Shown here: positions 5,164 through 61,894 of the stretch, one piece after another | How the letters are laid out: the number at the start of each line of letters is the position of its first letter | Position numbering within the stretch: the first letter of the stretch is position 1 | Source of the DNA: Zingiber officinale | Lineage: Eukaryota > Streptophyta > Magnoliopsida > Zingiberales > Zingiberaceae | Length of the DNA: 64,000 bases | Assembly: GCF_018446385.1 (NCBI RefSeq) | Contig: NC_056000.1 | Coordinates: 49,880,722 to 49,944,721, forward strand | Direction of reading: 5' to 3' | Notes under the pieces: generated by a model | Databases searched by the model: none | What the model was told of the DNA's origin: nothing | The model's input: the letters and a program-made list of their open reading frames with translations, nothing else | Position numbers and translations under genes: made by a program

Positions 5164-5699
5164 TTTATCATGTCTAAAAGAATTCACATATCTCTATAAT
5201 GGTATGATATTATTCACTTTGAATCTAAACTCTCATGGTTTTATTTTTTCACTCTACATAGAAAACTTCATGTTGGATCAAGATCGCGCTAGAGGGGGGG
5301 AGTGAATAGCGCTCGTGGCTTTCATGCATTTCGGATTTGCAAAACAATGAGTAATACAGCGGAAAAATAAATGCAATATAGAAAGACACAAGTAGTTACT
5401 TGGTTCGAAGCCTAGGGTGACTCCTACTCCAAGGTCCGCGATCGTTGATTGCTTTTGGTGGGCAACAATTATAATATCACAAATTTGATACAATAAAGGA
5501 TTACAATTAACAGTAATAAAATATACTGACGACAAAAAGATTGATGAAATCGAAGTGTCGGGTCGTCGGGAACTTGCTGTAGCTTTGTCAGAACTTTCTC
5601 GTTAGCAGTTGGATGCAGAAAGGTTGCTTGTAAATAGATAAAAAAAAAACTACTGCTCGAACCCTCCTTAAATAGCATGCTTGAGGCACCTCAAAGCCC

Positions 5700-5925
5700 T
5701 TCCAAGGCGCCTAAAACCTGCCAAGTCAGCTGCGTGGATGAATGCTGAATTCTTCGTCTCTGATCCACTTGAAGGCGCCTCCATGGACAGTCCAAGGCGC
5801 CTCTAAGCAGTCTGAGGTGCCTCCATATCATTTGAGGCACCTCCAACTCTGTTGTGCGCAGACTTCAACTCCTTTGCACCCGAGGCGCCTCCAAGCTCCA
5901 TGGAGGCGCCTCAGACACTGTTCAT
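5700..5925. repeat. GGCGCC palindrome cluster in LTR
   Basis: At least four exact GGCGCC cores (near 5704, 5772, 5794, 5882 and 5903) plus diverged GGTGCC/GGCACC forms, each within longer gaggcgcctc-like palindromes. The cluster lies directly upstream of the minus-strand TATA-like sequence of the solo LTR. Confidence 0.8.
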
Positions 5926-6184
5926 CCGAGGGAAAACCTTGTTCTCTCATACTTGCAAGACATGTTAGTCCAAAAAACACAAACATATTATGTAAAACAA
6001 AGTTAGCACATATAATTACGATAAACAAAATACTTTGACAGTCTCTGGACTGTCCGGTTATGATTTCGGATTTTTGACCGGAAACCCTAGGTCGAACCGA
6101 CACCAAGAGTTCCCTCCGCGGGGAACGCGCCCTCACCTACTCCACTCAGGAGAGCATACCTGATGCCAGAACGATCCTCCAGAC

Positions 6185-6425
6185 CGACTGTACTTTTCGC
6201 CTAGGGTTACCACCCCTTATGACCTAGGGTTACCACCCCCTAAGGGTTTTCTCCACCTAGGGTTACCTCCTCCTAGGACCTAAGGTTACCCCCCCTTAGG
6301 ATTTCTCCTCCACCTAAGGTTACCACCCCCTAGGACCTCGGGTTACCACCCCTTAGAATTTTTCCTCCACCTAGGGTTACCTCCCCCTAGGACCTAAGGT
6401 TACCGCCCTTAGGATTTTCCACCTG
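6185..6425. repeat. Minisatellite of about 25-50-bp units, 'cctagggttaccaccccct'
   Basis: About nine degenerate units of cctagggttacc plus cccctagg with 'tttctcctcca' spacers, inside the 5271-6553 solo LTR. Units begin and end with CCTAGG/CCTAAGG-type palindromes. Confidence 0.75.
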
Positions 6426-6643
6426 CCTAACCGTAGTTAGGACTTTCCTACAAACTCATTCAAGCACATTAAATAATAATTAAACTTAATTTTGAATCCC
6501 TTTTTCCATTATCAAAACTAAGGTTTGATCATCGGATGCTTCCCGCACCAACACTTCATACCAATGGAGATATCTTCATTCTTTTTAAATCCATAATCTT
6601 TTTCATGTGTTTCTAATGTGGGATTTTGATTATATTCCCAACA

Positions 6644-6981
6644 TTTAGGAGACACGCTATAAATCAGAATATTATCAAAGTACACCACAACAGGCCTACC
6701 AATAAATGGCTGCAACAACTGATTCATCACTAGTATGAAAGTCTTAGGGACATTAGACAATTCAAAAGGCATCCCAAGCCATCATACAATCCTTCCCTAG
6801 TCTTAAAGGTTGTCTTCCACTCACTTCCATGCCTGATATGAATTTGATAGTACCCACTCTTCAAATTCAATTTAGTATACACAGTAGATCCACTAATCTG
6901 GTCAAACAAATCATCTAATCGAGGAATGGGAAAATGGTACCTGATAGTGATTTTATTGATGACTCTGCTATCCGTATACAT
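6644..6981 (-). pseudogene. Reverse transcriptase, fingers and palm through YxDD
   Basis: The N-terminal piece reads [18 protein letters not shown], then [14 protein letters not shown] and WKTTFKT. After a frameshift comes [12 protein letters not shown], followed by [12 protein letters not shown]. These are RT motifs A to C of Ty3/gypsy. The usual second Asp of YFDD is Asn here and the frame is broken, so the enzyme is dead. The coding continuity stops at 6644 where the TRIM begins and resumes at 4780. Confidence 0.85.
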
Positions 6982-7195
6982 ATGCCAAGAGTCATCCTTC
7001 TTTGATATTAAAGGGTAGGTACAATACTAGGGCTTATGCTCTCTCTTATATGATCCTTAACTTATAATTCTTCAACCTATCACCGTAGCTCCTCATGCTC
7101 GCGTGGGCTCATCTTGTAATGTGCTCTATTCGGCAATGTTGCTCTAGGCTCCAAATCAATATGATATTGAATATCACGCAAAGGAGACACTTCGC

Positions 7196-7483
7196 TTAGT
7201 AGCTCTTTGGGAAAAGCTCACTAAATTCATCAATGAGCGAAGCCATAGATTCTGGAATAGTGCTGAATTCGAACACTTCCTTTCCCATCAACATATACCC
7301 CTTTTTTGCTTGCAGCAACTCCTCATCGAATTGAGCCCGAGACAATAAAGTCGTAGCTTCTCCTGTAGGTTTCAAACCTTCCATCGACTGTCTACAAGGT
7401 AGGAGCACAATTTTAATTCCTTCAAACACAAAACTGTGAGTATTGGCATGCCCATCATGATGCACACCTCTATCATACTGCAC
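7196..7483 (-). pseudogene. Protease-RT linker of the chromovirus-like polyprotein
   Basis: A 95-residue open stretch reads QYDRGVHHDGHANTHSF, IKIVLLP and [10 protein letters not shown]. It matches the usual text between protease and RT in plant chromoviruses (QYDR..HDG..NTY and LLDEF.DVFP). Position between gag (7.8-8.6 kb) and RT fits. Confidence 0.7.
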
Positions 7484-9765: not shown

Positions 9766-11355
9766 TGTTTAGGCCCGTACGAACTAGAGTGGGGTGAATA
9801 GTTTCAATCTCTTCTCAGTTTTACTTTGTGCTCATCGTTTGAATGTATAGTAGAAACCTTGATTCAAACTTGACTATACTTGGATTGTACTTGGTATCCA
9901 CCTCCTTGAGGTGACTAATCGAAGGGTCAACACTAGCTATCACGTCCACTATGAACACTCTCCTTCTCAAAAATTTTCAAGAGGTGGAGAAGTCTCGTAC
10001 AAGCTTGTTCTTATAAGAACACAATAAGAAATGCAAACAAGATTGCAAAAGAAATCAAAAATGACTTTATAATGAAGAACCATGCTTTACTTGCTCTTTT
10101 CTTTCGTTGAATTTCCTCTTGGTAGTAGTAAATGCAATAACACTTTTACCCCCGAACCCTCAAGAATCGGCAATTTTAAATCTTCATGAGATCTCTTTTT
10201 TCTAGGGTTGCTTTTGGGTTAATGTATGCTTCTCAATTGATTGACCTTATCCCTAATTGATTGTCACGTCATTTCTGACTATTCAAACCAGTATAACAAC
10301 ATATTTCACCTGGCCAATCGATTGGTGACTCATACCAATTGATTACCAGCTTCTAATCGATTAAGTAAATCGATTCTGAAGCCTTCTGTCCTCTTGAGAA
10401 AGCATTGTCAATCAATTAGTCCAATCAATTGTCAAGGCTGAATCGATTGGACCAATCTATTTGGCAGACTTCTGTTTCCTTGAGAAACTTCTGCCAATCG
10501 ATTGCTTCAATAGATTTTGGACTCTACTGTGCTCCTGAGATAACACAACCAATCGATAGACTCAATCGATTGCTATAAGCTAATCGATCACCATGATCGA
10601 TTTAGAAAGCTTTTATGCTTTCCAGAATAGGCTCCCAATCGATTGAACCAATCGATTACTTTGGGCCAATTGATTACACTAATCAATTGATCAACCATTA
10701 ACTCTAAATTCAAGTTTAGGGTTCTTTTGCCCAATATCTAATCAACTTGACCTATTGAGATTTCCTTGTTGCCTAGCATCCAGTCAACCTTGACTTTTTT
10801 AAGCTTTTTCACAAAGTGTCTAGTCCTTCTTGACCCACTTAGATTTTTTCTCTTGACAACCTTCCCATTAGACTTTCGATCACTATGTATTTGATCCTCC
10901 TTGATCCATTTGGACTTTTTCCCTTGTTAACTTTCCATTAAACTTCTTATTACCAAGTGTCTAGTCCTTTTTCACCCACTTAGATTTTTCCCTTGCCAAC
11001 CTTCCTATTGGACTTCTGATAACTAAGTATCTGATCCTTCTTGACCCAATTATACTTTTCCCTTGCCAACCTTCCTATTGGACTTCTGATAACTAAGTAT
11101 ATGATCCTTCTTGACCCAATTAGACTTTTCCCTTGCCAACCTTTCCGGTGGACTTTAGATCACCAAGTGTCTAGTCCTCCATAGCCCACTTGAATTTTCC
11201 TCTTGTAACTTTCCGTTGGACTTCCGATCACTATCAAGTATCTGGTCATATTTTATTTCTCTCTCACATATTGTCAAACATCGAAACACAAACTCGAACC
11301 AACCCGAGTTTGGTCAATTTGGTCAACCTTGACCCGATGTTGATTGCACTAACAA
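9766..11355 (-). repeat. 3' LTR with AATCGATT palindrome cluster
   Basis: TG...CA ends. The middle (about 10300-10690) holds at least eight AATCGATT or CAATCGATTG palindromes plus diverged CAATTGATTG forms. The right third (10740-11250) is a degenerate array of 'ccaagtgtctagtcc' and 'cttgacccacttagac' units like those at 1-320. Confidence 0.7.
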
Positions 11356-13002: not shown

Positions 13003-15190
13003 TGTTGGTGCAAGATTCACCAGAATCAAACTTATATTTTGATATTATCAAAGGTTCAAGTTAAGTCTTGTTATTATATGATGAATTGAACAAACGTGCA
13101 TGATGCTCAACTTGGAAAGTACTAGTTGAGGCTAGGCAAGAGAAAGTTCTAGTTGCAGCTAGGCGAGGAAAATCTTAGTAGATCAGGGAAACTATGAAGG
13201 AAGTCCAGATGGGTCATGTGGACCTAACATCTAGCAAGTGAATTCGATGGCTCTAGAGGATCCGATATCGAATTAAGAGGAATCCCTAACAAACTGATCT
13301 GATGCTAAGTGATTAAAGTCTAAACAAGTCTGGAAGACTCGATGTTTGATAGGTGAGTGAAGTAAGCTCTTGGAGGGAGTGCAGTTAGGTCTTGTCCTAA
13401 TAGGAACAAACCTTAGGTGCTGATCCAACTGAAGAAACCAGGAGGTTTCTAAGTCGAGATCAAGACAGTCCTAACTATCATACTACTCATGCATATTCAT
13501 ATCGATCTAACTTTGTTTTACAGGACTACTATTACTACTACTGTGCTAACTTTGTTTTACAGATAAACAAAGTTCTGGGTTGATCGAGAGTTTGGTCGAC
13601 TAAACGTATGGTTAAGTCGACTAATCCGGCCAACGTGGCACAAATCAAATTGAAGTCCAAACCAATTTGGTATAATACAGTGCTATCAGGCGACGAATAA
13701 AAATTATCGGTTGATTGATACTTAAAAGGAAATGACAAAAGATCATATCACAACAAAGCAAATTTGGTGTACAATTGGATCCTTCAACTGATCAATGAGA
13801 TTCGTCGACCAATCCACATTTGTTAAGCGATTCTGGATCAGATTGGATCACATAGAAAAGGTATACTCAGGTTCCGTCGATGGATCAAGTTTATAAGTTG
13901 ACCGAACACAGGAAATCATGGGATTGGATAGATCAAATCAGAGCAAACAAGGAAAGATACGATGTTCAGTCGAAGTATAGAAGGTTCTGTTGATTGAAAG
14001 GTTCGAACAACGGAATGGTAGTTTAGTCAACAAACTTATATTTTGATATTGTCAAAGGTTTAAGTCAAGTCTTGTTATTATCTGATAAATTGAACAAGCG
14101 TGCATGATAGTCAACTTGGAAAGTACTAGTCGAGGCTAGGCAAGGGAAAGTTCTAGTTGCGGCTGGGCAAGAAAAATCTTAGCAGATCAAGAAAACTAGG
14201 AAGGAAGTCCAGATGGCTCATGTGAACCTAACATCTAGCAAGTGAATTCGGTAGGTATAAAGGATCCGATATCGAATTAAGAGGAATCCCTAACAGACCG
14301 ATCCGATGCTAAGTGATTAAAGTCTAAACAAGTCTGAAAGACCCGATATTTGATAGGTGAGTGAGGTAAGCTCCTGGAGGGAGTGCAATTAGGTCTTGTC
14401 CTAATAGGAACAAACCTTAGGCGCTAATTCAACTAAAGAAACCAAAAGGTTTCTAAGTTGAGATCAAGACAATCCTAACTATTATACTACTCATGCATAT
14501 TCATATTGATCTAACTTTGTTTTACAGGAATACTATTACTACTACTGTGCTAACTTTGTTTTACAGATAAACAAAGTTTCGGGTTGATCGAGAGTTTGGT
14601 CGACTGAACGTGTGGTTGAGTCGACTAATCCGGCCAACGTGGTACAAATCATATTGAAGTCCAAACCAATATGTATAATACAATGCTATTGGGCGATGAA
14701 TAAAAATTATCGGTCGACTGATACTTAAAAGGGAATGACAAAAGATCATATCACAATAAAGCAAATTTGGTGTACAGTTGGATCTGTCGACTGATCAGTG
14801 AGATCCGTCGACCAATCCACATTTGTTAAGCGATTCTGGATCGGATTGGATCACACAGAAAAGGTATACTCAAGTTCTGTCGATGGATCAAGTTTATAAG
14901 TTGGTCGAACACAAGAAATCATGGGATTGGACGGATTGAATCAAAGCAAACAAGGAAAGACACGATGTTCAGTCGAAGGATAGAAGGTTCTGTTGACTGA
15001 AAGGTTCGAACAACGGAATGGTGAATCAGTCAACAAAACAATGTCTATAAAAAAAGACCTCGATCAGGGTTCGAGCCGAGTACTCAATTCATTTTCATTC
15101 AATCTCTTACTGCACTCACTCACTACTTATGCAAGATCTTCCATCATTATTGTCGATATATTTACATTATTGCTTGCATTCATTCTATAA
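13003..15190 (+). mobile_element. Copia-like LTR with an internal 1-kb tandem duplication
   Basis: Begins tgttggtgcaag, and its first 90 bases match the solo LTR at 30325 (caccagaatcaaac, then 'gtcaaaggttcaagtt', then 'aagtcttgttat'). The body is present twice in tandem (13028-14031 and 14032 to about 15035, offset 1004 bp). Only the second copy is followed by a TATA box (tctataaaaaa, about 15045) and the downstream LTR part. The 3' end is not sharp. It carries GTCGAC-type palindromes. No coding sequence. Confidence 0.75.
13028..15035. repeat. Tandem duplication, two copies of 1004 bp
   Basis: Landmarks recur at a constant offset of about 1004 bp: aaacttatattttgatat at 13028 and 14032, and caagcgtgcatgat, aggaatccctaacag and cgattctggatc in both. 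The copies differ by scattered substitutions, mostly C/T or G/A, so the duplication is not recent. Confidence 0.9.
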
Positions 15191-16223
15191 GGAGATTTGT
15201 ATTATTATTATTATTATTATTCTCCTCATTCAAATATTTAGTAAATTGACTAACGAAAATGATCAAAATAGTGAGATTTAGAGTAATAGTCATGAAGCAA
15301 GTAAAAAAAAATATACATTCTTGTTTTTATTTTTTTATTTTCACTATATTTAAAAATAAAAAATAAAACCAACAAGATTGATCCCTCTCTATTCACATAT
15401 ATATATATATAACTAGTATATATGAAAAATTCAGATTCTCTGAAAAATGTCTCCTTTTTTAATTTTATTTTCTTTTACCCTCACCCACGGAATAGTGTAC
15501 TGACTTGCGCAGCCAAGTAACTGCCAGCCTTGTTATCTTCTCCGCCCTCTCACAAAGCACATTCTGATGCATCACGGAGACCAAGAACCGACGCGTTAGC
15601 GAGCGCCTCGATCCTCAACACGCGGCTCGTTGGTGACCCTCCAAGCTGTAAGAGACCATCGATCGAGCCACGATTAATTTCTGGCGTCAAAATCCAGCGC
15701 TTACGACGAGGTAATTATTGCCGTCAGAGCGAGAAAGAGAGAAGGAGAGAGAGAGAAGTGTTGGGATTGGGGAAAGTGGGGGAAGGAAGCAAAAGCTGAG
15801 AATGGAAAGAGAAGGCCAGCCAGAGAATTAAGCGCAGTGAATGAATGGGAAACCGAGGCCGCAGCAGCCGCAGCAGCACCGCCATCCCCTTGGCGGCGTC
15901 GCAGTAGATGCTGCAGCTGCCTCCTTTTCTTATCTCCTTAAACGACAACTACTGTTCCTCTTCGTCTTGGAATCGAAGCGTGATAAAAGTTGCAGATCAG
16001 AGAGAGGCGAAGCCGGCGCGTCGACTGCCTGACTGCTGCCTGCCTCTCTCCCTCCCTCGGAGTCCCTCGCTGGTAGCCGGGGTAAAAACGACGACAGCAG
16101 AGAGTGGCTTTCACGCTTTACCACTCCGAGGGAATTAGGTAAAACAAAGCCACGGATTGAATTCGTAATTAAGCAAGCGGAGGGGCCGGGGAAGAACACA
16201 GCTAGCGCTTTAATTTATTAAGC
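15191..16223. other. Upstream region and 5' UTR of the SRS gene
   Basis: Holds an (ATT)n microsatellite at 15201-15221 and an (AT)n run near 15400. From about 15480 it becomes GC-richer. A GA-rich tract (gagaaggagagagagagaag, about 15737-15756) resembles GAGA/BPC-type plant promoter or leader elements. No mobile element was recognised here. A transcription start could not be fixed. Short upstream ATGs exist (15530, 15841, 15908), so the leader may hold upstream reading frames if transcribed. Confidence 0.5.
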
Positions 16224-17263
16224 ATGGCGTCCGGATTCCCTTTTGGCGGCGGCAGAGGAGACGGCGGCGGGATCCCTCCGGCGGAGTCCTTCTTCCTTTA
16301 TGGCGGCCGCGGCGGAGGAAGCCGGAGAGACCCTGAAATCGGCGGTAGTGGTTACACCCGCGGATTCGAGCTGACGTGGCAGCAGCAGCAGATCGGGCAG
16401 CAGCAGCAGCACTACTCGGCGGCGGTGGGGTTCCCCGGCGACCTCCCTCTCGTCGCGGGCCTCCGCTCTGAGGCTGGCAGAGGCAGCGTCGGAGGAGGGC
16501 ATAGCTGCCAGGATTGCGGCAACCAGGCCAAGAAGGACTGCTCCCACCTCCGTTGCCGCACCTGCTGCAAGAGCCGCGGCTTCCAGTGCGCCACCCACGT
16601 GAAGAGCACGTGGGTCCCCGCCTCCAAGCGCCGAGAGCGTCAGCTGCAGCTCGCCGCCGCCTCCGCCGGAGAGTCCTCCAAGCGCTCCAGGGACATCGTC
16701 GTCGCCGCTACTACCACTACCACGTATGGTACTGCAGCTTCTCTCACTCCGAATCCAAAAACGAAATAGCCATGAAAATTGAAAAAAATAAAATAAAATA
16801 AAATAAAAACAAATCGTGCTAACTTCAATAACTACTCTACTAATAAAATTAAATGGCAGGAGGAGGAAGTCAAAATCACGATCTGTTTCCGGCGGAGGTG
16901 AACGCGGAGGCGATGTTCCGGTGCGTGCGCGTGAGTCCTGTGGACGAGGCGGAGGAGGAGTTCGCGTACCAGACCACGGTCAGCATCGCCGGCCACGTGT
17001 TCAAGGGCGTGCTCTACGACCACGGCGCCGCAGGCCCCGGCGATCTCCCCTCCTCCTCCTCCTCCCGCTACCAATTACTCACCCACGGCGAGGACTCGTC
17101 CTCTCCTACCGCCACCGGCGCCGCCCCCACCGCCAACGCCAGCGCCAACGACGCCGCAAACACCGCCGCCACCGCAGAGCTGCTGGAGCCGTATCCGACG
17201 CCGCTGAGCGCCTTCGTCGCCGGCACACCATTCTTCCCGCACCAGCGATACAGGCCTAGCTAA
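16224..17263 (+). CDS. SHI-related sequence (SRS/STYLISH-type) zinc-finger transcription factor
   Basis: Two exons, 16224-16728 and 16860-17263, give 302 aa. The donor tatg|gtactg and acceptor ggcag|gagg keep frame; the nearer GT at 16724 would not. The SRS RING-like zinc finger (residues 95-131) is complete: [25 protein letters not shown], then THVKSTWVP and a basic KRRER stretch. The N terminus has the family's Gly-rich start, [10 protein letters not shown] and a poly-Gln run after FELTW. Exon 2 holds the family-specific IGGH domain ([24 protein letters not shown], then VFKGVLYD), but the name-giving motif is IAGH (211-214). The tail is Ser/Ala/Thr-rich. SRS proteins are nuclear activators of auxin-biosynthesis genes and of style, stamen and lateral-root development; that role is inferred from the family. 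The coding sequence is strongly GC-rich, unlike the AT-rich flanks, as is common for monocot genes. Confidence 0.92.
16729..16859 (+). other. Intron of the SRS gene, 131 bp
   Basis: GT-AG intron with an AT-rich body including an (aataa)n run near 16790. The conserved SRS intron position between zinc finger and IGGH domain is kept. Confidence 0.85.
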
Positions 17264-24679: not shown

Positions 24680-25315
24680 ATCTCCAATTATCGGGTACAA
24701 AGAGTGTTTATCGATACCGACAGTTCCGTCAACATCATTTTTAAAATAAATTTCGATCAGATATAGCTAGATGGAGAGAAACTTCATCCTATATATATCC
24801 TTGTACAATTTGCAAGGCGCAAAGTATAACCGATTGGCGAAATTAACCTCTCCCTTTCCATGGAGGACGAACCATTTATGTGGACTCGACAAACATCCTT
24901 CCTTTATTATAGTAAACACTACCTCTATCTATAATGTCATATTAGGAAAATCAACATTTAGTACCTTCCAAGCAATAGTTCCCATTTTTCATCAGAAAAT
25001 CAAGTTTCTAGTAGGAAGTTGTTTGGGGAGGTAAAAGGTGATCAATTGGCGACGAGAAAATACTATGTTGATATAATCCAAACCGACTCGCACAAGACCC
25101 GTCAAACTTAAAAAACTACTATCCAAGAGGAACTAATATCTCGACTGGAGAAGAATCATAAAAGTGTACAAGTTCATCCCGATCATCCAGATGGAGTCAC
25201 TCGAGTAGCTACCAACCTCCCTTTAGGGTTTAAACAAGAATTAACTGCATGTGTCTCATGCAACCATGATGTCTTCATCTGGTTATCAAAAGATGTTACA
25301 GGTATTTCCCCAATT
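24680..25315 (+). pseudogene. Aspartic protease and protease-RT linker remnant
   Basis: VFIDTDSSVNIIF is the retropepsin motif (usually D-T/S-G-S-S) with the Gly replaced by Asp, so it is inactive. Downstream FKQELTACVSCNHDVFIWLSKDVTGI matches the linker before RT in Tat elements (FAW..DM.GI). It ends exactly at the 25321 solo LTR. Confidence 0.7.
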
Positions 25316-25320
25316 GTAAT

Positions 25321-26602
25321 TGTAGGATCGAAGACACGTGGGGGTTGGATCACGTATATTTTTAAAACTATTTTTTTATCAAATTTTTAAAAATAAAGTG
25401 CGTAATGGAATTTAAAACAATAAAGCAAGAAAACATAAATGAAAAATTGAAAACAACGACTCAGTCGGTTTACTTGGTTCAAATCCTTTGACGACTCCTA
25501 CACTAAGATCCAAGCCCCTTGAATCTATCGATGAGCAATCCATTAAAATTCTCTATCAATAAATTCTTAGTAGAGTAATCGAGTGCAAAGAATAATAATA
25601 GGAAAATATAACACCCTACACTTCCTTTTAATACTAATGTAAATGACTTGAAATTAAAACGTTACCCAACACGATGATATTGACATGGTTTCACTCATGT
25701 GTTGATATCGGTCTGTCGACAGTAGTTGGATATAATTGAGTAGTAGCACGGTAGCAGCGCAAGGACATAGTTGTAGAATAATCGCTAGAGTTTGTGAAGA
25801 AGTTGTCTTTGCTACTGCCGAACACCCTCTTTTATACCCCATTGGAGGTGCCTCCAATGGTTTATGGCGCCTCCAATGGCGTGTATCCGATCTGAGGTGT
25901 TCGGTTTCTATTCACGTGAGAGTGTCTCCAATGGCTCCAAGATGCTTTCAATGTGCTCTGAGGCACCTCCAATGTGATTTAGGGCACCTTCACTCAGGGA
26001 ACTTCTATCCCTGAAGTTTATCCGTGCGAAGACGCCTCCTCCATGTCCAAGGCGCCTCCACTGAGCTCCGAGACACCTTCCTGTAGCTCTGAGGAGTCTC
26101 GAGTACTACTCATCTAAGGCTGGGTTATGGATTAATTAGATTCTGTCTTACCAAGACCAAGATCTAATCATGGTCTCAGCTTAGACTTCTAAAATTGATC
26201 TAAGATGGACTAGCACCTACAGTCCCATTAGGACTCATCCTCACTGGATCACTCTCCTTCAGTGCTTACCTCACTTACCATTGTAGATTTACTTGACCTT
26301 GATCTCTTAATCCACTGGGTTTTCTTGCCATATGCCTCATCTGTACTTTAGCTAATTGTCTAGTCCTCCCTGGCCCGACTGGACTTCCTACTAACTGTCT
26401 AGTTCTCTGTGACTCAGCTGGACTTTCTGCCAATCATCTGGTCCTCCCTCACCTGACCGAACTTCAGCCTAGAGTTTGGTCCCTATCAAGTCTTTCAATT
26501 CTTCACACTTGGTAAAAGAATTAAAATACATAACATCTAACTTTAAATCATTTGTCATTCATCAAAACCTAAGTTTGACTATTGGTGCTGACTTCACCAA
26601 CA
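25321..26602 (-). mobile_element. Solo LTR, 1282 bp, with perfect 5-bp target duplication
   Basis: tgtaggatcg...cttcaccaaca (TG...CA) flanked by gtaat at 25316-25320 and 26603-26607. Minus orientation is shown by the TATA box (TATAAAAG, 25836-25829) and the conserved LTR motif ggttcaaatcc...gactcctacact (25477-25505). A GGCGCC/GGTGCC palindrome cluster (25843-26100) is directly upstream of the TATA box. The flanking Tat coding sequence rejoins cleanly (DVTGI...LNMLPEVW) once it is removed. Confidence 0.92.
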
Positions 26603-32666: not shown

Positions 32667-32680
32667 AGTGGTATCAGAGC
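32667..32680 (+). promoter_or_regulatory. Primer-binding site, initiator-Met tRNA type
   Basis: agtggtatcagagc directly follows the LTR end ccaata. Identical sites are at 59280-59267 (minus) and 61895-61908. Confidence 0.85.
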
Positions 32681-39659: not shown

Positions 39660-42600
39660 CTATGTGTAGATACTGAAAACGTCAATGATAGGGCGAACGG
39701 CTAAAGGAATTCTAACCCAATGGACACCATCTTCCCATGTCAGACTTCCAAACAAGTATCCACTATGCACCTTTAGCTGCGACCGGAACTTCACCTTGAA
39801 GTTTAACTTACTGATAGTAGAATTGAACATTAGGATCGAGGGTTTGACACGAACACTCACCCCAGGAGGAGCTTCAACATGAGCAGTGTACGTGGATGCA
39901 ACTGGACCAATATTTGTAACTGTTCTTGAGACTGTTAATTTGCCTTTTAATTCAGGTATGGCTATAGATGGAAGATTAAGATCCTTCTGTGATTTATATG
40001 CGTCGTGGCAGACAGTGGGTTGTCGCACAATGGAACTCACAGCAGTATTGTTATGGCCCATAGAGCACAGGAAATGCACATAATCAGACGGCACCATGTC
40101 GTATAGCAAACCGGGATGTATGGCTCGATTTGGATTCACATGTCCACCTCCATAGTCGAATGAGTTTGCTTTCTTGTTAGGAGCTCCTTCGGCTGCTATA
40201 TTAAGGGCATTTTCATCGTCGATAGTAGCTGTTGGTAGCACAATACAATTTAGGTCACAATTGTATTGCTTGACAAATACAATTCAAGCAAAGTGAATGC
40301 AACTTGCCTGTTGTGATTAGCGCAGATTTTATTGCAGCTGGGCTCCAATCTGGATATGTTGCTTTGAGAAGAGCAACAATTGCAGTAACATGAGGACAGG
40401 ACATGGAGGTGCCTGACTCGATTTTAAAATCAAGTGAAGGTTTACTGTTCTGTGGAGAAGCAGGTGACCAAGATGCTAAGATATTTACACCAGGGGCAGC
40501 AAGATCAGGCTGAAACAGATGAGCAGATAAAGAATGTCAGCTTATTGATATTTAGAACTGAAACTGATTTCACAAAGTGAAGACGTAACGATTGAAGTGC
40601 AGTTGCACCTTTAGCACATATGGTGAAAGTGAACTAGGACCTCGAGATGAGAAGTATGCTACTTCAGGAGCTGTAACAGTCCCCAAAGCTGTTTTTGTGG
40701 GGCTAAATTTAATCACTGGATTCCTGTGACACGATCGCATTGAAAACTTTTAAAATTGGAAGTATATGTTCAAAAGAAATCTGCTTTAGGGCACACCTTG
40801 TATTGCCAATGTACATGAGTATATTTGTTCCAGTTTCAAGGTCAACTTGGATGCAAGGAAAATCAAATGCAAAGGAAATGTCCTCCGTCAAGAACTGTGA
40901 AAAGATGACCGCAACCCCATGGGCTCTTCTTACAGTATCCGAAGCAACCAGCGGGGATCTTTGTTCCCGAGTCTGAAAGCAGATAACAACTTTTCCTCTT
41001 GCTAAAGTCGAATTTAGCGAAGCTGCACTACAGCCTCTAGAAAAGGCAGCATAGTTAGAGAGTATATTTGCCTTTTAAATGGATGTAGAAAATTTTGGAC
41101 AATGAAAAGGGCCTACCGGGCATCAGAAGCATCTGCTTTATCTGAAGCAATATCTTCAGCATAAACAATCCCATAAAACTTATCTGCATGCTCTCCAAGG
41201 AACAAAGCTTGACCCTGAATGTTCATGATCAAAGATCAGATCAAGGCATTCTTTGTTTTCATAAAATTGATAATCAGATAATGGAATACGGACAATGACT
41301 TGTTAATCCTAGTATTTTTCAGATAATTAATATACAATCAGTCAAAAAAAAGGAGATATTGAGTTTAGTGAGCAAAGCAGTCTCACATTTTGTTTGCACA
41401 ATTAATTAAATAGTCATAGTTAGAAATTGAATGTTTGAATTTGAAATCAAAATGGAATGTATATTTTATCTCAATCAATTTTTTAGAATCAAGAACCCAT
41501 GAAGAAAGGAATCAGTCACAAACTAACGGAGCATTTGGTTTACAGAAAGGAATTGAAAAGGAATAGGATGACTATTCCAAGAGAATAGAATTAACAAAGC
41601 ACAGAATAGGAATATTTATCATGGAATGAAATAGATGTTTTCCTGTGAATTTTTATGTTTGGATTATAGTAATCTTATAAGTATTAGACAAAGAATAATG
41701 CTCATAATGATAAAGTATTCCTACATAGAAAAAAAAATTTTAAAAAAATGTCCAGTTCATACAACTTATCAGGCTCAACCTAATCCAAACAACCTATCCC
41801 GCCCACCTAGCCAGACTACCAACGGACCTACTTTGCAATTCATAATATATACATTTACTCTTTGGAAGATTAAATAGAGTAAATTAGGCACCTTTGAAGA
41901 AAGGATAAATAAAAAATAGTTATTCCTAAAACAAAGCATTGAATAGCTATTCTTTATAATTAGGAAATCATAATTCAATGGAAACTCGTACTCCGAATTC
42001 ACTTTTATAATCAAACATAGAAATACTTATTCCATGAGAATTCATAAGTCATGGAATAGTCACTCCTATGAACCAAGTGCACTATAATTAATAGCCATTG
42101 GTATGGAGAAAAGGTACTCAGAAGAATATGAAAAACCAAAAAAGAAACATTCAACCCAATGAGTTAGTTTCCTTATCTACCAGTTACCATTACATTGAGA
42201 TGTCTACTAAGCTGATAAGAGAGATATTCACTGATACTAGGAATGAACTAGCATTTAGTAATCATTATTATAAAGTGGCTAATGCTACAATAAGTTATCC
42301 TTTGTATTCATAAATTCAAATTCTCGCATATCATCTACTTTAGGAGCATTCCTACTCAATTAAATTATTGAAAATTTGATTATAATATTTGTTTATTTAA
42401 CTTATAAACTTATCTGAATAAAAGTCCAATTTTTAAATTTAAAAAAAAAAAATACTAATTTGCTACAATTCGAGTTTACACCCTTTGTATGTTGATTTTG
42501 TCATAATCATCCTCAATACTACCACTTTCATACCCCATGATTGGTATAAAGGCGTGAACATCATCCTTGCTTGATGATATGCTAAGATTTTCTAGTTTAT

Positions 42601-50836: not shown

Positions 50837-50841
50837 TTTAG

Positions 50842-54141: not shown

Positions 54142-54789
54142 TGTTGGACCCCGTGGTAGTTTTTGTTAGGACCTTCGGATGGTTAGAGAGGGGGGGTGTG
54201 AATAGCCGACCCCAAATTTTCGTTTCTTCCTACAATTTAGGTTAGCGCAGCAGAAATAAACGTAGAAACGAAAATGGAAAAGGGCAAATCTCAAACGCAA
54301 CGATACAACGAGGTTTGGAGATGATACTCCTACTCCTCGGCGTGTCCGTAAGGTGGACGAATCCTATCAATCCGTCGGTGGATGAGACCCCGGAAAACCG
54401 GCTAATAAGAACTCCTTCTGGGTGGAGAAACGTCGCCACAATCTCTTTTGCAACAGCAATAAAGGAGTACAAGAAATAAAGCAAGAAACAATGGATAATA
54501 TGAATGTAAATACACTCTACCAAGTTTGCTTGCCTTCTTCTCGTTGACTGGAGTCCATTGATGAAGCAGCAACTTCACGGATGATGCCAACAGCAGCTGA
54601 TCAACCAGTCAAGGGAAGCTCACACGAAGTTTCAGCAAAGAGGAGCTCAGCAAAGCTCAAATCGCAGTAAGGAGGAAGAGCAAGAACTGTTCCTGTAGAG
54701 GCCCTCGACCTCGATATATATCCTGCACCTGCTGCACCTGTGAAGAAGACAAAGAACAACACAGAAATCTAGCCGTTGTGTCGCAACGG

Positions 54790-55100
54790 CTAGGCCTGGA
54801 CCGATCAGGCTCCACCCTGATCGGTCTGGGAGCCATCTGATCGGTCTGTGGACCGATCAGGCCCTAGGCTAATCGGTCCCCAGACCGGTTAGCCATCTCT
54901 GTGAGGGTTGGCTTTAAAGCCTGATCGGTCTGTGGACCGATCAGGCAACGATCAGTAGCTTCCTGATCGTTTTCTAATCGGTCTGTGGACTAATCAGATA
55001 ACCTACAGCGAACCACTGTTTGGTTACTGATCGGTCACCAGACCGATCAGATAAACCTGAGTATCACTGGATCGGTAACCAGACCGATCCAATGCCTTAG
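54790..55100. repeat. GATCGGTC / GACCGATC palindrome cluster
   Basis: More than a dozen half-sites tgatcggtc or gaccgatca, mostly paired as ctgatcggtctgtggaccga-type units. Some pairs carry matching changes (ctaatcggtc with gactaatcag). Confidence 0.88.
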
Positions 55101-55138
55101 AGCTTCCCAGCCCTAAATCCTAAAGCATTCCCGGTCTA

Positions 55139-55735
55139 GAGAACGAGCTACTGAGCCCTCTCTGACCTAGTAGGGAGAAACGAGCTACCGAGCCCTCTCC
55201 GACTTCCATATCCGGTCCAGAGAATGAGCTACCGAGCCATCTCTGACCTAGTCCGGAGAACGAGCTACCGAGCCCTCTCCGACTTCCACGTCCGGTCCAG
55301 AGAACGAGCTCACGCTCTGACCTAGTCCGGAGAACGAGCTACCGAGCCCTCTCCAACTTCATCCGGTCCAGAGAACGAGCTACCGAGCCCTCTCTGACCT
55401 AGTCCGGAGAACGAGCTACCGAGCCCTCTCCAACTTCATCCGGTCCGGAGAACGAGCTACCGAGCCCTCTCTGACCTAGTCCGGAGAACGAGCTACCGAG
55501 CCCTCTCCAACTTCATCCGGTCCGGAGAACGAGCTACCGAGCCCTCTCTGACCTAGTCCGGAGAACGAGCTACCGAGCCCTCTCCAACTCTGTCTGGTCC
55601 AGAGAACGAGCTCCCGAGCCCTCTCTGACCTAGTTTGGAGAACGAGCTGTCGAGCCCTCTCCAACTTCGTCTGGTCCAGAGAACGAGCTCCCGAGCCCTC
55701 TCTGACCTAGTCCGGAGAACGAGCTGCCGAGCCCT
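55139..55735. repeat. Minisatellite, about 16 units of roughly 38 bp
   Basis: Units contain gagaacgagctaccgagccc followed by tctctgacctagtccg or tctccaacttcatccg, alternating. Open reading frames across the array (for example 55476-55812, minus) are products of the repeat and are not genes. Confidence 0.93.
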
Positions 55736-56030
55736 CTCCGACTTCCCATGCCAAGCTTCCATACTTGGACTTCTCCCGTGCCAAGCTCCCTGCTTGGACT
55801 TTTCCGTGCCAAGTCTCCATACTTGGACTTTTCCGAATCAAGTCAACTCAAGTCGGGGTCAACCAGGTCAACCTTGACCGAAGGTTGCACCCATAATCTC
55901 CCAAGTTTGTATTCTTGTCAAACATCAAGATACAACTTTTCTATTCTCGTCAAACATCAAAATACAACTCGAGTCATGTCAACTCGAGTCGGGTCAACCA
56001 GGTCAATCTTGACCTAAGGTTGCACCAACA

Positions 56031-56045: not shown

Positions 56046-57742
56046 ATGTTTGACAAAAACCATAATCAAGTTAGGTTAACCCGATAACCTAACTTAGGTT
56101 TTCCAATAGTTCTCCAATCAATGTTCTTCCTTGAACATTCTCCCCAAACTCCAATGTTCTTCCTTGAACATTCTCTAGACATTTCTCCCCCTTTTTGACA
56201 CAATCAAAAAGAGTGAATCAAGGTTAAGAGTTTCTTCCTAATGAAAGTCTCATACCTTTCATTGAAACCCTTAATTTCCCCCTTGATACTAAAGACAATA
56301 ATCAACTTAGTGATAATCTCATATCACTCATCCTCAGAAATTGAGTAAAAACTCCCTCTAAAAGTCAACTCCCCTTTGACCAATAGGTAAAGCTCCCCCT
56401 AAAGGTCAACTCCCCCTTGACCATTCACCAACAATGTCTTGGAGAGTTTCAACCCTTTAGAAATCAAAAACACCAACTTCCAAAGCTGAAATTTCAGACA
56501 ACAATCGAAAATCAGCATTTTGGCACGCTCTGATCGGTCACCAGACCGATCCACACTTCTCTGGATCGGTCCAGTGACCGATCCAGACTTCCCTGGACCG
56601 ATCAGGATCCCCTCTGATCGGTCCACAAATCTCTGATAGGGATTTCTGATTTTTCTCCCGAAATTCAGAAACCCCTAAAAAATCACAGAAAATTCCAAAA
56701 ATTATAAAATTTTGAGGATACATTCCTCATAACATATATTATCATGGAAAAATAGTTTTCTATGAAAATAACTTCCATTTTAAATCTTGATACAAAGTTT
56801 GAAAGACTTTGAAATAGCTCAAGGTAAATCCATCTTTGTGTCAACTTGCTCAATGATGAATGCTATCATTAGAAAAGCTTCATCAAGGCTTTTCAAATCA
56901 ATTTTGAAATGATTTTAAACCATTTAATTTAGGACCACAATCTTAGGGCTAAGTGTACATGACTTGTACGCAAGCTTTCCCTATGATCCTCAATTTCGAA
57001 TTAGGCTCATCTAGGTACAAGAACTATGCACCTTGATCCTAACTCATAATCCTAATATCTCACACACATCTAAGGTGTATCAAACACATCCAAGTCAATT
57101 TTGATGTGAGATATGGGTTTAGGTTATCTTAAGCTAAGTTCTCATGCATTTTCTAAACAACAATTTGATCTCCATATCAAATTGTGTTTTTATCCTTAAA
57201 TCAATTTAATTGATCATACATGCAAGAGATGATGACATGGCATAAAATAATATCATAAGTGGAAACATGTGCCAATGTCATGATGTCATGGCATAAAGTA
57301 TGAAACTTAAATAAGGCATGACATATAACTAACCTAAGCATTATCATGATATTTCAAATGATAGTAAATTAGATATGATGTCATGACATGGCATATGGCA
57401 AACAATATATGGCAAATAACATATAAAGGTATAGAAAATACCTAATTCTAGCTTTAGTTGCCATTTTTGATAATTTTGATCATTTTGCCATAAATTCTAT
57501 ATTCCTAAGTGTAATAGATCTAAAATCATATACTAAAGATTTTTAGATCACTATGTGCCAATTAGATTGACCCTAGAAAATTACTCAAGTGTGGTTGGCA
57601 CATCCTAATCACCTTAGGAATGAGTAAAATTTTAAATTTCATTTTCAAGGCTTGATTACACCTTGAAAATTCCTAAAATGCCACCTTTTGCCATGATTAG
57701 GTTAACTACCTATCCAATTAAGGTTGGCACACCCTAACCCAT
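56046..57742. other. Non-coding interior of the nested element between gag and 3' LTR
   Basis: No protease, integrase or RT remnant was found. 56528-56630 repeats the LTR's own ctgatcggtc / gaccgatcc palindromes. Pyrimidine-rich words ctcccccttgacc recur near 56190-56420. Confidence 0.75.
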
Positions 57743-59218
57743 CTAACGTGATGGAATCACGCTCCTAGGAACCCAAAACCTATTTGAGCTCATTGGGTTC
57801 ACTAAATATTCACTAGGGATAACTTCCCTAGCAACCCTCCTAATGACCCTCTTAGGCTTTAAAGCCTTGGTCATTTGGGACTCATCAAGATCAACTCTAG
57901 GGGTGACTCCCCTTGTGACCTTGGTGATGGTCTTCCTAGCCCTAGGTCTTGTTCCATAATCGAATGGAACATTATGATAAGTGGGCTTGACCACTTGAGA
58001 CTTAGGTTTGTGACTCAAACCTCTCATGTCCTTGGGCTTTTGTTTTTGACCCTTAGACCCTAGAGTTGACTTCTCCAAATTCTTAAGGGCCTTTTCTAAA
58101 GTGTCAAGTCTTGACCTTAAGACTTGATTTTCCTTCTCTAATACCTCAAGTTTTAATTTGTCATTTTTCTTTGAGGTATTCCTAGGCATATGTCTAGTTG
58201 TTTTGGGATTCCTATCTAGGTTTTCCTTAACCTTAGATGAGTTAATTCTAGGGTTGGTACTTCTAGTATTGTCCTTATCTAGACTAACATGTTTGGCACT
58301 TAAGCACATGTATCGGTTTCTATAGTTATCATGCTTATCATTATTGACAAATGCAATAAAGCTACTAGCATGTGTCTTATTAGAATTGCAAGGATATGCC
58401 TTAAAGGGTACCTTAGGGTTTGCCTTAGCTCCCCCCATAGATGTGCTTGGTCTCTTGTCCTTGTGAGGTTGCCTCCCCCTCGGACATTGGCTCCTATAAT
58501 GTCCCCTTTGCTTGCATTGGAAGCACACTACGTGCTCCTTACCCTTGCGTATCGGGACTCCGGCTTCCTTGACCTTTGGCGCCGGTGAAGTATTCCTAAT
58601 CCTCTTTGGACATTTACTCTTGTAATGCCCATATTCCCTACACTCAAAGCACATTATATGTAATTTACTTGAAATTAAGTTGCTTGAGTTACCTAGGGTT
58701 GAGGATGGATATAAGCTCTCTTCTTCTTCCCTTCCGGAGGTAGAGACTTCTTCTTTTTGCTCCAATCTTGAAGAAGAACTCTTCTCCTCTTCTTCCTTAG
58801 ATGTTGAGTAGTCCACAACTTCTAATTCCATACCTCCATGATGTGAGCTACTTGGCTCACTTGACTCCTCTTCATGACTTGAATTGGACCTCTCCTCATG
58901 GAACTTAGCCAAGTTGTTCCACAACTCCTTGGCATCGTTGTATCCACCTATCTTACGCAAGACATCATTAGGTAATGAAAATTCAAAGATTTTCGTTACC
59001 TCGTCGTTGATCATGGATCGATGGATTTGTTCCTTCGTCCACTTCTTCTTCTCAAGAGGTTCTCCTTCTTTATCCACCGGAGGAATAAAACCTACTTGTA
59101 CACAATTCCAATTTACTAGGTTAGTCATAAGAAAATACTTCATTCTTACCTTCCAATACGCGAAGTCATCGCGATCGTAGAAGGGTGGAATCGTGATGTC
59201 TTCTCCAAGTCGATCCAT
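57743..59218 (-). CDS. Gag protein of the nested element, intact, 491 aa
   Basis: An uninterrupted frame starts MDRLGEDITIPPFYDRDDFA then YWKVRMKYFLMTN (the DUF4219/UBN2 start of plant Copia gag) and has the AKELWNNLAKFHEE segment near residue 100. After a Ser/Glu-rich linker come two CCHC zinc knuckles, CFECREYGHYKSKC and CFQCKQRGHYRSQC, separated by about 30 residues, that should bind the packaged RNA. A heptad-like stretch (KLEVLEKENQVLRSRLDTLE) predicts a coiled coil. The C-terminal part is basic. The frame ends without any protease domain. This is a capsid/nucleocapsid polyprotein of a mobile element, not a host gene. Its uninterrupted length contrasts with every other retroelement frame in the window. 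Confidence 0.92.
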   Translation of the reverse strand: MDRLGEDITIPPFYDRDDFAYWKVRMKYFLMTNLVNWNCVQVGFIPPVDKEGEPLEKKKWTKEQIHRSMINDEVTKIFEFSLPNDVLRKIGGYNDAKELWNNLAKFHEERSNSSHEEESSEPSSSHHGGMELEVVDYSTSKEEEEKSSSSRLEQKEEVSTSGREEEESLYPSSTLGNSSNLISSKLHIMCFECREYGHYKSKCPKRIRNTSPAPKVKEAGVPIRKGKEHVVCFQCKQRGHYRSQCPRGRQPHKDKRPSTSMGGAKANPKVPFKAYPCNSNKTHASSFIAFVNNDKHDNYRNRYMCLSAKHVSLDKDNTRSTNPRINSSKVKENLDRNPKTTRHMPRNTSKKNDKLKLEVLEKENQVLRSRLDTLEKALKNLEKSTLGSKGQKQKPKDMRGLSHKPKSQVVKPTYHNVPFDYGTRPRARKTITKVTRGVTPRVDLDESQMTKALKPKRVIRRVAREVIPSEYLVNPMSSNRFWVPRSVIPSR

Positions 59219-59266
59219 TCTCTAGCTGGTGCTCCCCCGGGTGTTAATCCGTCGAAGAGCAACCTT

Positions 59267-59280
59267 GCTCTGATACCACT
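59267..59280 (-). promoter_or_regulatory. Primer-binding site of the nested element
   Basis: AGTGGTATCAGAGC on the minus strand abuts the LTR edge at 59281; initiator-Met tRNA type. Confidence 0.9.
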
Positions 59281-61029
59281 TGTTAGGACCTTCGGATGGC
59301 TAGAGAGGGGGGGTGTGAATAGCCGACCCCAAATTTTCGTTTCTTCCTACAATTTAGGTTAGCGCAGCAGAAATAAACGTAGAAACGAAAATGGAAAAGG
59401 GCAAACCTCAAACGCAACGATATAACGAGGTTCGGAGATGATACTCCTACTCCTCGGCGTGTCCGTAAGGTGGACGAATCCTATCAATCCGTCGGTGGAT
59501 GAGACCCCGGAAAACCGGCTAATAAGAACTCCTTCTGGGTGGAGAAACCTCGCCACAATCTCTTTTGCAACAGCAATAAAGGAGTACAAGAAATAAAGCA
59601 AGAAACAATGGATAATATGAATGTAAATACACTCTACCAAGTTTGCTTGCCTTCTTCTCGTCGACTGGAGTCTGTTGATGAAGCAGCAACTTCACGGATG
59701 ATGCCAACAGCAGCTGATCAACCAGTCGAGGGAAGCTCACACGAAGCTTCAGCAAAGAGGAGCTCAGCAAAGCTCAAATCGCAGTAAGGAGGAAGAGCAA
59801 GAACTGTTCCTGTAGAGGCCCTCGACCTCGATATATATCATGCCACTTGTGAAGAAGACAAAGAACAACGAAATCTGGCGTTGTGTGCATGGCGGCTGAG
59901 CTGAACCGATCAGCTCCACCACGATCGATGCAGGGCTCATCGATCGATGCGTGGACCGATCCCTAAGCTAATCGGTCCCCGGCCGGTTAGCCATCTCTGA
60001 GTTGGCTTTAAAGCCCGATCGGTCGTGGACCGATCGGGACGATGCCTGATCGTTCTAATCGATACATGGACTAATCGGATAACCTACGGTGAACCCTTTG
60101 TTTGGTTCTTGATCGGTCACCGAACCGATCGATCGAGTATCCTTTGGATCGGTAACGGACCGATCCAATGCCTTAAACTTCGACCCTAAATCCTAAAGCA
60201 TTCCGGTCTAGAGAACGAGCTCCGAGCCCTCTCGACCTAGTAGGGAGAACGAGCCACCGAGCCCTCTCCGACTTCCATATCCGGTCCGGAGAATGAGCTA
60301 CAGCCATCTCGACCTAGTCCGGAGAACGAGCTACCGAGCCCTCTCCGACTTCACGTGCCAAGGAGCCGTACTCGGTCTAGTCTGGAGAACGAGCTACCGA
60401 GCCCTCTCTGACCTAGTCCGGAGAACGAGCTACCGAGCCCTCTCCTACTTCATCCGGTCCAGAGAACGAGCTACCGAGCCCTCTCTGACCTAGTCCGGAG
60501 AACGAGCTACTGAGCCCTCTCCGACTTCATCCGGTCCGGAGAATGAGCTACCGAGCCCTCTCTAACTCTGTCTGGTCCATAGAACGAGCTCCCGAGCCCT
60601 CTCTGACCTAGTCCGGAGAACGAGCTGCCGAGCCCTCTCCGACTTCGTCTGGTCCAGAGAACGAGCTGCCGAGCCCTCTCCGACTTCCCATGCCAAGCTT
60701 CCATACTTGGACTTCTCCCATGCCAAGCTCCCTGCTTGGACTTTTCCGTGCCAAGTCTCCATACTTGGACTTTTCCCGTGCCAAGCTCCCTGCTTGGACT
60801 TTTCCGTGCCAAGTCTCCATACTTGGACTTTTCCGAATCAAGTCAACTCAAGTCGGGTCAACCAGGTCAACCTTGACTGAAGGTTGCACCCACAATCTCC
60901 CAAGTTTGTATTCTTGTCAAACATCAAGATACAACTTTTCTATTCTCGTCAAACATCAAAATACAACTAGAGTCAGGTCAACTCGAGTCGGGTCAACCAG
61001 GTCAACCTTGACCTAAGGTTGCACCAACA
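59281..61029 (-). repeat. 5' LTR of the nested element, 1749 bp
   Basis: Partner of 54164-56030. The first 600 bp differ only by scattered, mostly C/T changes. 59870-60340 has many one- to ten-base deletions relative to its partner, after which similarity recovers. The minisatellite has about 12 units here against about 16. Confidence 0.92.
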
Positions 61030-61426
61030 GTTTTGATGTGATCAACCAAGTTAGTTAGGTCCTGCTGTGTTTGATCCCTATGTCTGAGTGTGCAGGAGCT
61101 TAGGAACACAGGAAGTCGAGCGGAAGACGCAGCTAGCGAGAAGGACGGCACGGGAAGGGAGCCGACGGGCTCGGTGCGTCCGAAGGACGAGAGAGCTGCG
61201 GAAGAGTACTCCGGTGGGTGTGAAGAGCGTGCGCGGCATTCGAGGGACGTTAAGCCGAGACGGAAGGCTGCTCGAGGAAGGCCGAAAATTGGGTTCGGGT
61301 GAGCCCTATTTCGGTTGGCCGAAATCACCCAAACAAATGGAGCTTCGGAAGATAAAGTGAAGAAGAAAATGAGTCAAAAGAGGCAGGAAGTTACTGTAGC
61401 AGAAATTATTGTAGCAGGAACCTTGA

Positions 61427-61550
61427 AGGCGCCTTGAATGGATTGTTTAAGGCGCCTTGAGCAGGCCAGTTTGACCGTTTGCGCTGCGGATAAAGTTTTA
61501 TTCACAGATCGAGTTGGAGGCGCCTTGAACCCTGTTGGAGGCGCCTTGGA
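61427..61550. repeat. GGCGCC palindrome cluster in the 5' LTR
   Basis: aaggcgcctt at about 61428 and 61450, and ggaggcgcctt at about 61516 and 61537. The 3' LTR copy has extra units at 63861-63912. Confidence 0.9.
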
Positions 61551-61575
61551 CTCTCGGGATAAGATTTCCAGGGCC

Positions 61576-61583
61576 TATATAAA
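61576..61583 (+). promoter_or_regulatory. TATA box of the outer element
   Basis: cctatataaaggcccctgg in the LTR, downstream of the palindrome cluster; a standard plant LTR promoter layout. Confidence 0.75.
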
Positions 61584-61894
61584 GGCCCCTGGAACTAGGA
61601 ATTCAATAACAACTCAAGCATTCAATCTGTAGTGTTTCCTAGCAATAGTTCTGAGCTTTTGAAAGTGTAAAAGACTTCTCCGCCTTCAGCAAAGGAGAGT
61701 TTCTTTTAGTGCGCTTCTACTGCCCTGGATTAACAACCTCCTTGGTTGTAACCAGATTAATTCCTGAGTCTCTTTTTATTGATTTATTATTTTGTTAACT
61801 ATTGCACTAACTGAGTTGAAAGTACGAGGAGGGTATAGTTACTTTTTGTTTACAGCAATTCACCCCCCTCTTGCCGGCCTCCGCTGCACCAACA

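Follow-up and report, generated by a model that had tools for sequence, protein, structure and literature searches.

The stretch of Zingiber officinale DNA analysed here (contig NC_056000.1, positions 49,880,722 to 49,944,721), referred to below as the window, is 64,000 nucleotides long and contains long terminal repeats (LTRs) of several retrotransposons. At least seven of these LTRs carry in U3 a cluster of one short palindrome, repeated as a series of boxes, which in most of them lies just upstream of a TATA-like box (Table 1). In our view the clusters are, with high probability, the RM boxes of Sireviruses (Ty1/copia), a kind of motif that has been in print since 2010. The present analysis adds the spacing of box pairs and a wider palette of cores and, judging from the sequence, the boxes are likely to function as dyad sites for dimeric factors.

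Palindrome clusters in the LTRs of the window

Table 1. LTRs, boxes and associated features, in window coordinates.
Feature	Position	Strand	Boxes and other content	Exact core copies
LTR A	5271–6430 (upper limit approximate)	-	GGCGCC boxes about 5685–5911; TATTTAA about 5668–5674	GGCGCC: 5706, 5774, 5796, 5884, 5905
LTR B, U3 part	10300–11353 (LTR start about 11353)	-	AATCGATT boxes 10316–10657; no clear TATA	AATCGATT: 8 copies, 10316–10650
LTR C	13003–15300 (right limit approximate)	+	Decayed GTCGAC boxes; TATAAA about 15046	
LTR D	25300–26590 (limits approximate)	-	GGCGCC boxes about 25843–26060, others degenerate; TATAAAA about 25829–25835	GGCGCC: 25866 and 26051 only
LTR E	30325–31643	+	TTCGGTCGACCGAA-type boxes 30878–31172; TATAAA 31189	GGTCGACC: 30880, 30946, 30967, 31040, 31061, 31144
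LTR F, part 3' of insertion E	31649–32668 (end approximate)	+	AAGGCGCCTT boxes 31954–32128; TATAAA 32140; primer site 32669	GGCGCC: 31975, 32021, 32100
Element G 3' LTR	54164–56030	-	Bipartite CTGATCGGTC-N4-GACCGATCAG-type boxes 54790–55090; TATATA about 54712–54720	GATCGGTC/GACCGATC: 54799–55082
Extra boxes, same core as G LTRs	56520–56645	-	Internal (linker) part of G	GATCGGTC dyads: 56528–56640
gag-like open reading frame of G	57743–59218	-	491 amino acids; CCHC zinc knuckle; PF00098, E 2.9e-6	
Element G 5' LTR	59281–61029	-	Boxes about 59905–60170	
Element H 5' LTR	61035–61894 (first 22 bp at 54142–54163, before G)	+	AGGCGCCT boxes 61428–61546; TATAAA 61578; primer site 61897	GGCGCC: 61428, 61451, 61519, 61540
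Element H 3' LTR	63435–64000 (cut by window end)	+	Three AGGCGCCT boxes spaced by exactly 20 bp, 63865–63910	

All of the clusters named in the original prediction are present as exact words, and LTR C, which was missing from its list, can be added to them, as can the 5' LTR of G, the 3' LTR of H and the linker boxes of G. The GGCGCC clusters hold in this strict sense for A, F and H; LTR D has only two exact copies, the rest being variants. A TATA-like box next to the cluster was confirmed in most LTRs, with TATTTAA in its place in A, and we agree on inspection that B has no clear TATA box. The view that the core differs by family while its position is kept is also supported. The statement that these LTRs share little sequence needs qualifying: E, F, A and the sampled families described below share R/U5 homology of about 65–86% over 80–240 bp. 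When the window was divided into 128 non-overlapping 500-bp pieces, dyads repeated at least three times were found in 12, whereas five dinucleotide shuffles gave 1, 0, 0, 0 and 0 such pieces. Part of the dyads in the 12 pieces belong to tandem repeats and not to boxes.

With up to two mismatches of 10, LTR A has boxes at -233, -212, -164, -144, -124, -102, -34 and -13 relative to TATTTAA. The U3 box region of LTR C is present twice owing to an internal tandem duplication of about 1 kb, with about 91% identity over the parts aligned, and doublets of 20–21 bp occur there about every 94 bp if up to four mismatches of 12 are allowed. LTR E is probably a solo LTR; it lies inside LTR F and has CTGGC on either side. 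Element G interrupts the 5' LTR of H, where its insertion duplicated the 5-bp target GTTTT; we take it as non-autonomous because the 3.2 kb between its LTRs, which hold the gag-like reading frame, are too short for pol as well.

Upstream of the boxes the G LTRs hold tandem repeats of 36–77 bp (55131–55745, 60202–60687), and other LTRs have their own tandem arrays in a comparable place (6198–6430, 10809–11233, 30077–30323). A 107-bp tandem duplication (63134–63342, 98% matches) with polypurine tracts precedes the H 3' LTR. Pieces of host genes encode a DUF702 protein (16224–16769), a protein kinase (37397–38440, preceded by an open reading frame at 36244–37080) and an fn3_6 domain (39660–40241), which we take to be of the SHI/SRS type, receptor-like and as found in subtilases, respectively.

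The assignment to Sireviruses rests on the primer site, the polyC signal, the polypurine tracts and the gag of G, both G and H being too short for pol. The first three, including the repetition of the tracts, are marks of Sireviruses already in print. In G and H the primer site reads CA/AGTGG/TATCAGAGC, which matches the tRNA-Met criterion (LTR end CA, A(T or G)TGG, TATCAGAGC); that of LTR F is slightly deviant, with CCAATAAGTGG ahead of TATCAGAGC, and for LTRs A–E no primer site with this tRNA-Met sequence was found in the window. The polyC signal, which in Sireviruses stands some 21 bp before the LTR ends, is present at 31610 (E), 54191 and 59308 (G) and 61861 (H), and LTR F has only interrupted C, CCCTCCCTCCC. 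Polypurine tracts of the form AGGGGGAG precede the 3' LTRs of H (63126, 63150, 63256) and G (56185, 56393, 56410). Both elements have an AT/TG junction, the terminal tract being altered by one base in H and by two in G, and a large gag with a central CCHC knuckle is found in G only.

Dyads, cores and TATA boxes in sampled loci

The primer-site pattern TGGTATCAGAGCNNG gave 44810 + 44589 matches in the 3.09 Gb searched. From these, 70 tRNA-Met primer-site loci were taken in list order, all on C1 and without regard to palindromes. Dyads with 4-base arms and a spacer of 0–5 were counted in the 1.1 kb upstream of the primer site, and a locus was called significant if its count was at least 3 and was reached by no more than one of 200 dinucleotide shuffles. 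A polyC signal, defined as a run of at least five C at -50 to -20, was present in 42 of the 70. The TATA, flank, CpG and folding analyses used those 42 of 73 LTRs (the 70 sampled and three of the window) that have at least three boxes, each giving one box cluster.

Significant dyad clusters were found at 29 of the 42 polyC loci versus two of the 28 loci without polyC (Fisher p 1.5e-7, the rows not being independent). The 31 significant loci fall in 10 of 26 LTR clusters and 14 of them belong to one family, so that this value overstates independence; L051, one of the 29, is significant through a tandem-repeat dyad rather than boxes. The two exceptions among the 28 are L025 (C1:1479579), which has five GGTC-N4-GACC dyads, and L045.

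The original prediction implied a palindrome density upstream of TATA higher than in the rest of the LTR, and this was found. Perfect palindromes of at least 10 bp numbered 138 in the polyC loci at -900 to -350 from the primer site, against 26.5 in shuffles (5.2-fold), compared with 6 against 10.4 (0.6-fold) at -350 to -30, which is R/U5, and 21 against 15.4 (1.4-fold) at -1400 to -900. The corresponding values for the loci without polyC are 1.4-fold, 2.0-fold and, further upstream, 2.0-fold. CG lies at the exact centre of 113 of the 138 palindromes of the enriched zone, elsewhere in 15 and is absent from 10. By type, the mean maximum count in polyC loci was 4.9 for palindromes, 2.3 for mirror dyads and 1.9 for complement dyads. 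A chance origin of the clusters was rejected on the shuffle comparisons for window pieces, sampled loci and long palindromes. Simple tandem repeats were likewise rejected as a full account, the box flanks showing little likeness and mirror and complement dyads having lower mean maxima than palindromes.

Each family repeats one dyad, mostly centred on CG. The cores seen are GATCGATC, RGGCGCCY or CCGGGCGCCCGG, GGTCGACC, CAGTCGACTG, AATCGATT, and the bipartite CGGTC-N4-GACCG with its companion CCGATCGG. Genome counts are 105818 for GGATCGATCC versus 13265 for the word read backwards, and 53276 for CGGTCGACCG versus 508. Cores largely follow gag clades, with 10 changes on a 46-row gag tree. The tree used 46 of the 73 rows (fragments of at least 110 residues, labelled at two or more boxes); labels were set manually before row selection for ten of them, eight with the bipartite core plus L010 and L060, and the tree is poorly resolved, with 17 of 43 inner branches open. 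Replacement of a core in place is not proven by the gag-tree neighbours L038 and L013/L053 (SH-aLRT 88), which blastn aligns only downstream of TATA.

A TATAWW or TATAAG word lies within 110 bp downstream of 24 of the 42 clusters, compared with 2.7 expected in shuffles of the same stretch. Adding TATTTA, TTTAAA and ATTTAA raises this to 33 (6.1 expected), and the nine clusters gained all belong to the GATCGATC family, which is without a canonical TATA box.

As described by Bousios et al. (2010; PMC2829016), Sirevirus RM boxes are palindromic, CpG-rich and situated in the upper half of the LTR, in at least eight copies per element with one core per element, TATA following about 37 bp downstream; extra copies in the linker are tied to ENV. 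Cores in its Table 3 include CGGTCGACCG (Vitis), CGGTCTGACCG (Osr10), CGGTCAGACCG (Osr8) and ACAATCGATTGT (Tnd-1). The ginger clusters resemble these in lying in U3 close upstream of TATA, in the linker copies of G and in having one core per family, and LTRs E and B have cores similar to CGGTCGACCG and ACAATCGATTGT. They differ in their range of cores: significant loci occur in 10 LTR clusters, and in seven of these the core is of the GGCGCC, GATCGATC or AGTCGACT type, which Table 3 does not contain. The CGG-CCG signature is present in the GGTCGACC and GGTC-N4-GACC families, has its words in reverse order in CCGGGCGCCCGG, and is lacking in AAGGCGCCTT, GGATCGATCC, CAGTCGACTG and CAATCGATTG, as it is in the published Tnd-1 core. 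Observed/expected CpG has a median of 1.02 in the cluster span versus 0.88 downstream, and is higher in the span in 24 of the 42 clusters. A restriction of linker boxes to ENV elements does not hold here: linker boxes are found here in the gag-only element G, which has no room for ENV besides gag. G may be derived from an ENV-bearing parent.

Two other systems invite comparison. Tnt1 of tobacco belongs to a different copia lineage and has few box copies. Its repeated activator boxes, of which box I is named symmetrical, are likewise dyadic and are regarded as transcription activators where PMC2829016 refers to them. In maize, the passages on the Sireviruses Ji, Opie and Giepum in PMC5311732 and PMC10760457 describe LTR palindromes as small-RNA hotspots and discuss a conflict in which the element needs these sequences for regulation while they invite silencing. 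Those palindromes are also clustered in the LTR regulatory region, variable there and strong in predicted structure, but have the consensus CACCGGACNNNGTCCGGTG.

Spacing of the boxes

Contiguous palindromes often occur as doublets 19–23 bp apart, centre to centre, and the bipartite core at 32 or 40–42 bp. In 20 LTRs, chosen by us together with the mismatch limits (1–4) and including near relatives, 57 neighbouring spacings fall at 19–23 bp, compared with 15.7 expected from random placement of the same number of boxes in the same span. At least one such doublet is present in 19 of the 20, L022 being the exception. In L038 a 21-bp doublet recurs five times, roughly every 100 bp.

In 10 of the 20 LTRs, with four different cores, the last doublet lies 13–41 bp before the TATA-like box. 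The last two boxes stand at -41 and -20 in E and L038, at -37 and -15 in F and L044, at -34 and -13 in A, at -33 and -13 in L030, at -32 and -13 in L053 and D, and at -33 and -14 in L045 and L015. They are farther away in L031 (-63, -43), L035 (-52, -32) and L020 (-88, -67), and in the remaining seven they also lie farther off or have no assigned distance, as for wH and L052, in which one degenerate match falls past the TATA box.

Pairs were also searched genome-wide with a spacer of 4–34 bp (2–32 bp for the bipartite core) and the reversed core as control. GGTCGACC gave 17310 pairs versus 85, with 39 of the first 50 listed exactly 21 bp apart; GGCGCC gave 169746 versus 2308, with 76 of the first 100 listed at 19–23 bp; and CGGTC-N4-GACCG gave 47988 versus 0, the first 53 listed including 31 at 32 bp and 15 at 40–42 bp. 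Among these listed places the spacing departs by no more than 2 bp from a multiple of 10.5 in 45 of 50, 83 of 100 and 47 of 53, respectively, and by no more than 2 bp from a half-multiple in 4, 10 and 5; a uniform spread over 10–46 bp would give 46% and 35%. In the 21-bp GGTCGACC pairs the middle of the spacer varies at constant length and its ends (AAC, AT) are mostly kept.

Proposed function, turnover and folding of the box arrays

The original prediction had suggested selection for dyad sites, perhaps bound by dimeric host factors, or a hairpin function in the RNA, and its dyad-site interpretation is partly supported. The dyads are likely to be under constraint: in six of six family alignments the columns of the boxes vary less than those next to them, in both plain and purine/pyrimidine coding, and doublets are regular for most cores. 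The circular-shift fractions are 0.064, 0.016, 0.023, 0.144, 0.152 and 0.081 in purine/pyrimidine coding and 0.411, 0.003, 0.028, 0.193, 0.128 and 0.029 in plain coding, the reference row having been picked for intact boxes, which favours constraint. As had been anticipated, the boxes are found in other copies of the same family. In 28 F-family LTRs, retrieved with a query spanning the boxes and thus favouring kept ones, the 140 GGCGCC sites comprise 52 that are unchanged, 75 whose only changes are C>T/G>A and 13 with other changes. This decay would be as expected for methylated CG sites after insertion.

We favour, with reasonable though not strong confidence, the interpretation that the RM-box arrays are cis-regulatory sites of U3 at which dimeric factors, which we infer to be of the host, bind phased pairs of dyads. 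Each dyad would be occupied by a dimeric DNA-binding factor, two dimers on the same face of the helix would jointly activate transcription, and the identity of the core would determine which factor binds. The arrays would be homogenised and renewed through duplication and loss of box units, and pairing of the boxes in RNA would be a by-product. A core-independent spacing grammar, in which the members of a CG-centred dyad pair are separated by two or three turns of the helix, TATA directly follows the last pair and the cores are interchangeable, is a more tentative proposal that we consider possible but rather doubtful; its odds were lowered slightly because the GGCGCC phase fails when each spacing counts once.

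Several observations weigh against dimeric factors on phased dyad pairs. Constraint is weak in single families, and direct repeats (h-N-h) nearly match palindromes (mean maximum 3.9 versus 4.1 in the 70 loci, first control), in part because GATC is both. Nine of the 42 clusters have no TATA-like word within 200 bp. The GATCGATC family, the largest sampled with 14 LTRs, pairs at 12 bp, besides spacings of 39–40, 51–52, 19–20 and 29–32 bp, and L035 and LTR B also use 13 bp; neither 12 nor 13 bp corresponds to complete helical turns. A sharp 10.5-bp period was not found, the pooled phase vector having a broad maximum at 10–12 bp, and the GGCGCC phase is near zero (0.02) when each distinct spacing is counted once. 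Tandem duplication of a 20-bp unit can give regular spacing without selection, as in the H 3' LTR, and related copies inflate all counts. Caution is called for chiefly because of this relatedness, the family that pairs at 12 bp and the alternative of duplication.

That alternative holds the arrays to be mostly mutational: slippage and template switching would grow, shrink and homogenise them, and the cores and the spacing of about 20 bp would reflect the duplicated unit, with little function. We consider it unlikely as a whole, but the arrays do show signs of rapid turnover. The 20-bp tandem triplet of the H 3' LTR has no counterpart in the H 5' LTR. Five LTR pairs, all of the GATCGATC family and matched by position and similarity, were compared: per site, gap columns are more frequent in the box span than in the 3' part in all five, and substitutions in four, with L032 reversed; in L009 the 5' part is variable as well. 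The two G LTRs are 97–99% identical in R/U5 but 71–91% identical, with many one-base gaps, in 100-column windows of the box regions (54785–55090 versus 59890–60170); one upstream tandem-repeat window is also low (76%), and hypermutation, recombination or assembly error are candidate causes. Box flanks are slightly alike, with a mean identity by core of 0.28–0.40 compared with about 0.26 at random. The arrays thus appear to change fast via duplication and loss, perhaps during reverse transcription, assembly error being possible. A mutational origin leaves unexplained the position before TATA, the central CG despite deamination, the varied spacers at exactly 21 bp and the like layout with different cores.

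Selection for hairpins of U3 RNA or single-strand DNA, for example in packaging, 3' processing or regulation, with the dyads as stems, seems to us improbable. Predicted folding is very strong (z of -7.0, -14.7 and -10.3 in three window arrays), and a bipartite core with a 4-base loop would make a good hairpin. When five window arrays are added to the 42 clusters, the median z of the 47 segments is -7.0 relative to shuffles; masking the boxes at up to two mismatches brings it to -0.8 and masking four more bases per side to +0.2, compared with -0.9 in 42 R/U5 control segments. Masking removes from about one-sixth to more than four-fifths of a segment, so that small effects would be missed. Some arrays keep an excess after box masking (F -5.4, L060 -3.4, L015 -3.1, L052 -2.9, L029 -2.5) or with the four further bases masked (L035 -4.0, L029 -2.7, F -2.4, B -2.4, D -2.0). 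The strong folding is mostly a consequence of the repeated palindromes, and a separate hairpin element was rejected as a general explanation on the return of the median to the R/U5 level. Most cores are contiguous and loopless, and hence poor as single hairpins, and pairing alone does not require one shared sequence per LTR. Moreover, U3 precedes the transcript start and is present in the RNA only at its 3' end.

The weakest alternative, which we regard as very improbable, is that an anti-silencing factor, encoded by the element or co-evolving with it, acts at the boxes, in the manner of VANC for VANDAL DNA transposons: the family-specific cores that largely follow gag clades, and the same core in U3 and linker of G, would suit it, but G has no space for pol in addition to gag and the factor would have to be supplied in trans, and host factors account for the same facts.

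Returning to dimeric factors on paired dyads, the 2010 description of RM boxes named no bound factor, and the main text of PMC2829016 uses none of the words spacing, helical, apart and regular for them. In the open-licence literature we did not find GGCGCC-, GATCGATC- or AGTCGACT-centred cores, the doublet spacing grammar, the loss of folding on box masking or a box span outdiverging R/U5 between LTRs; a spacing rule may be published elsewhere. Now that box pairs are seen to keep a nearly constant distance and six or more cores are distinguished, the question of the bound factor becomes simply testable. If the spacing grammar is true, these LTRs would offer a modular landing platform for cooperating dimers of a plant transcription-factor class, in which cores are exchanged and the layout is kept. 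A factor reading the 169,746 GGCGCC and 47,988 bipartite pair matches would have a very large, scattered store of sites in the ginger genome.

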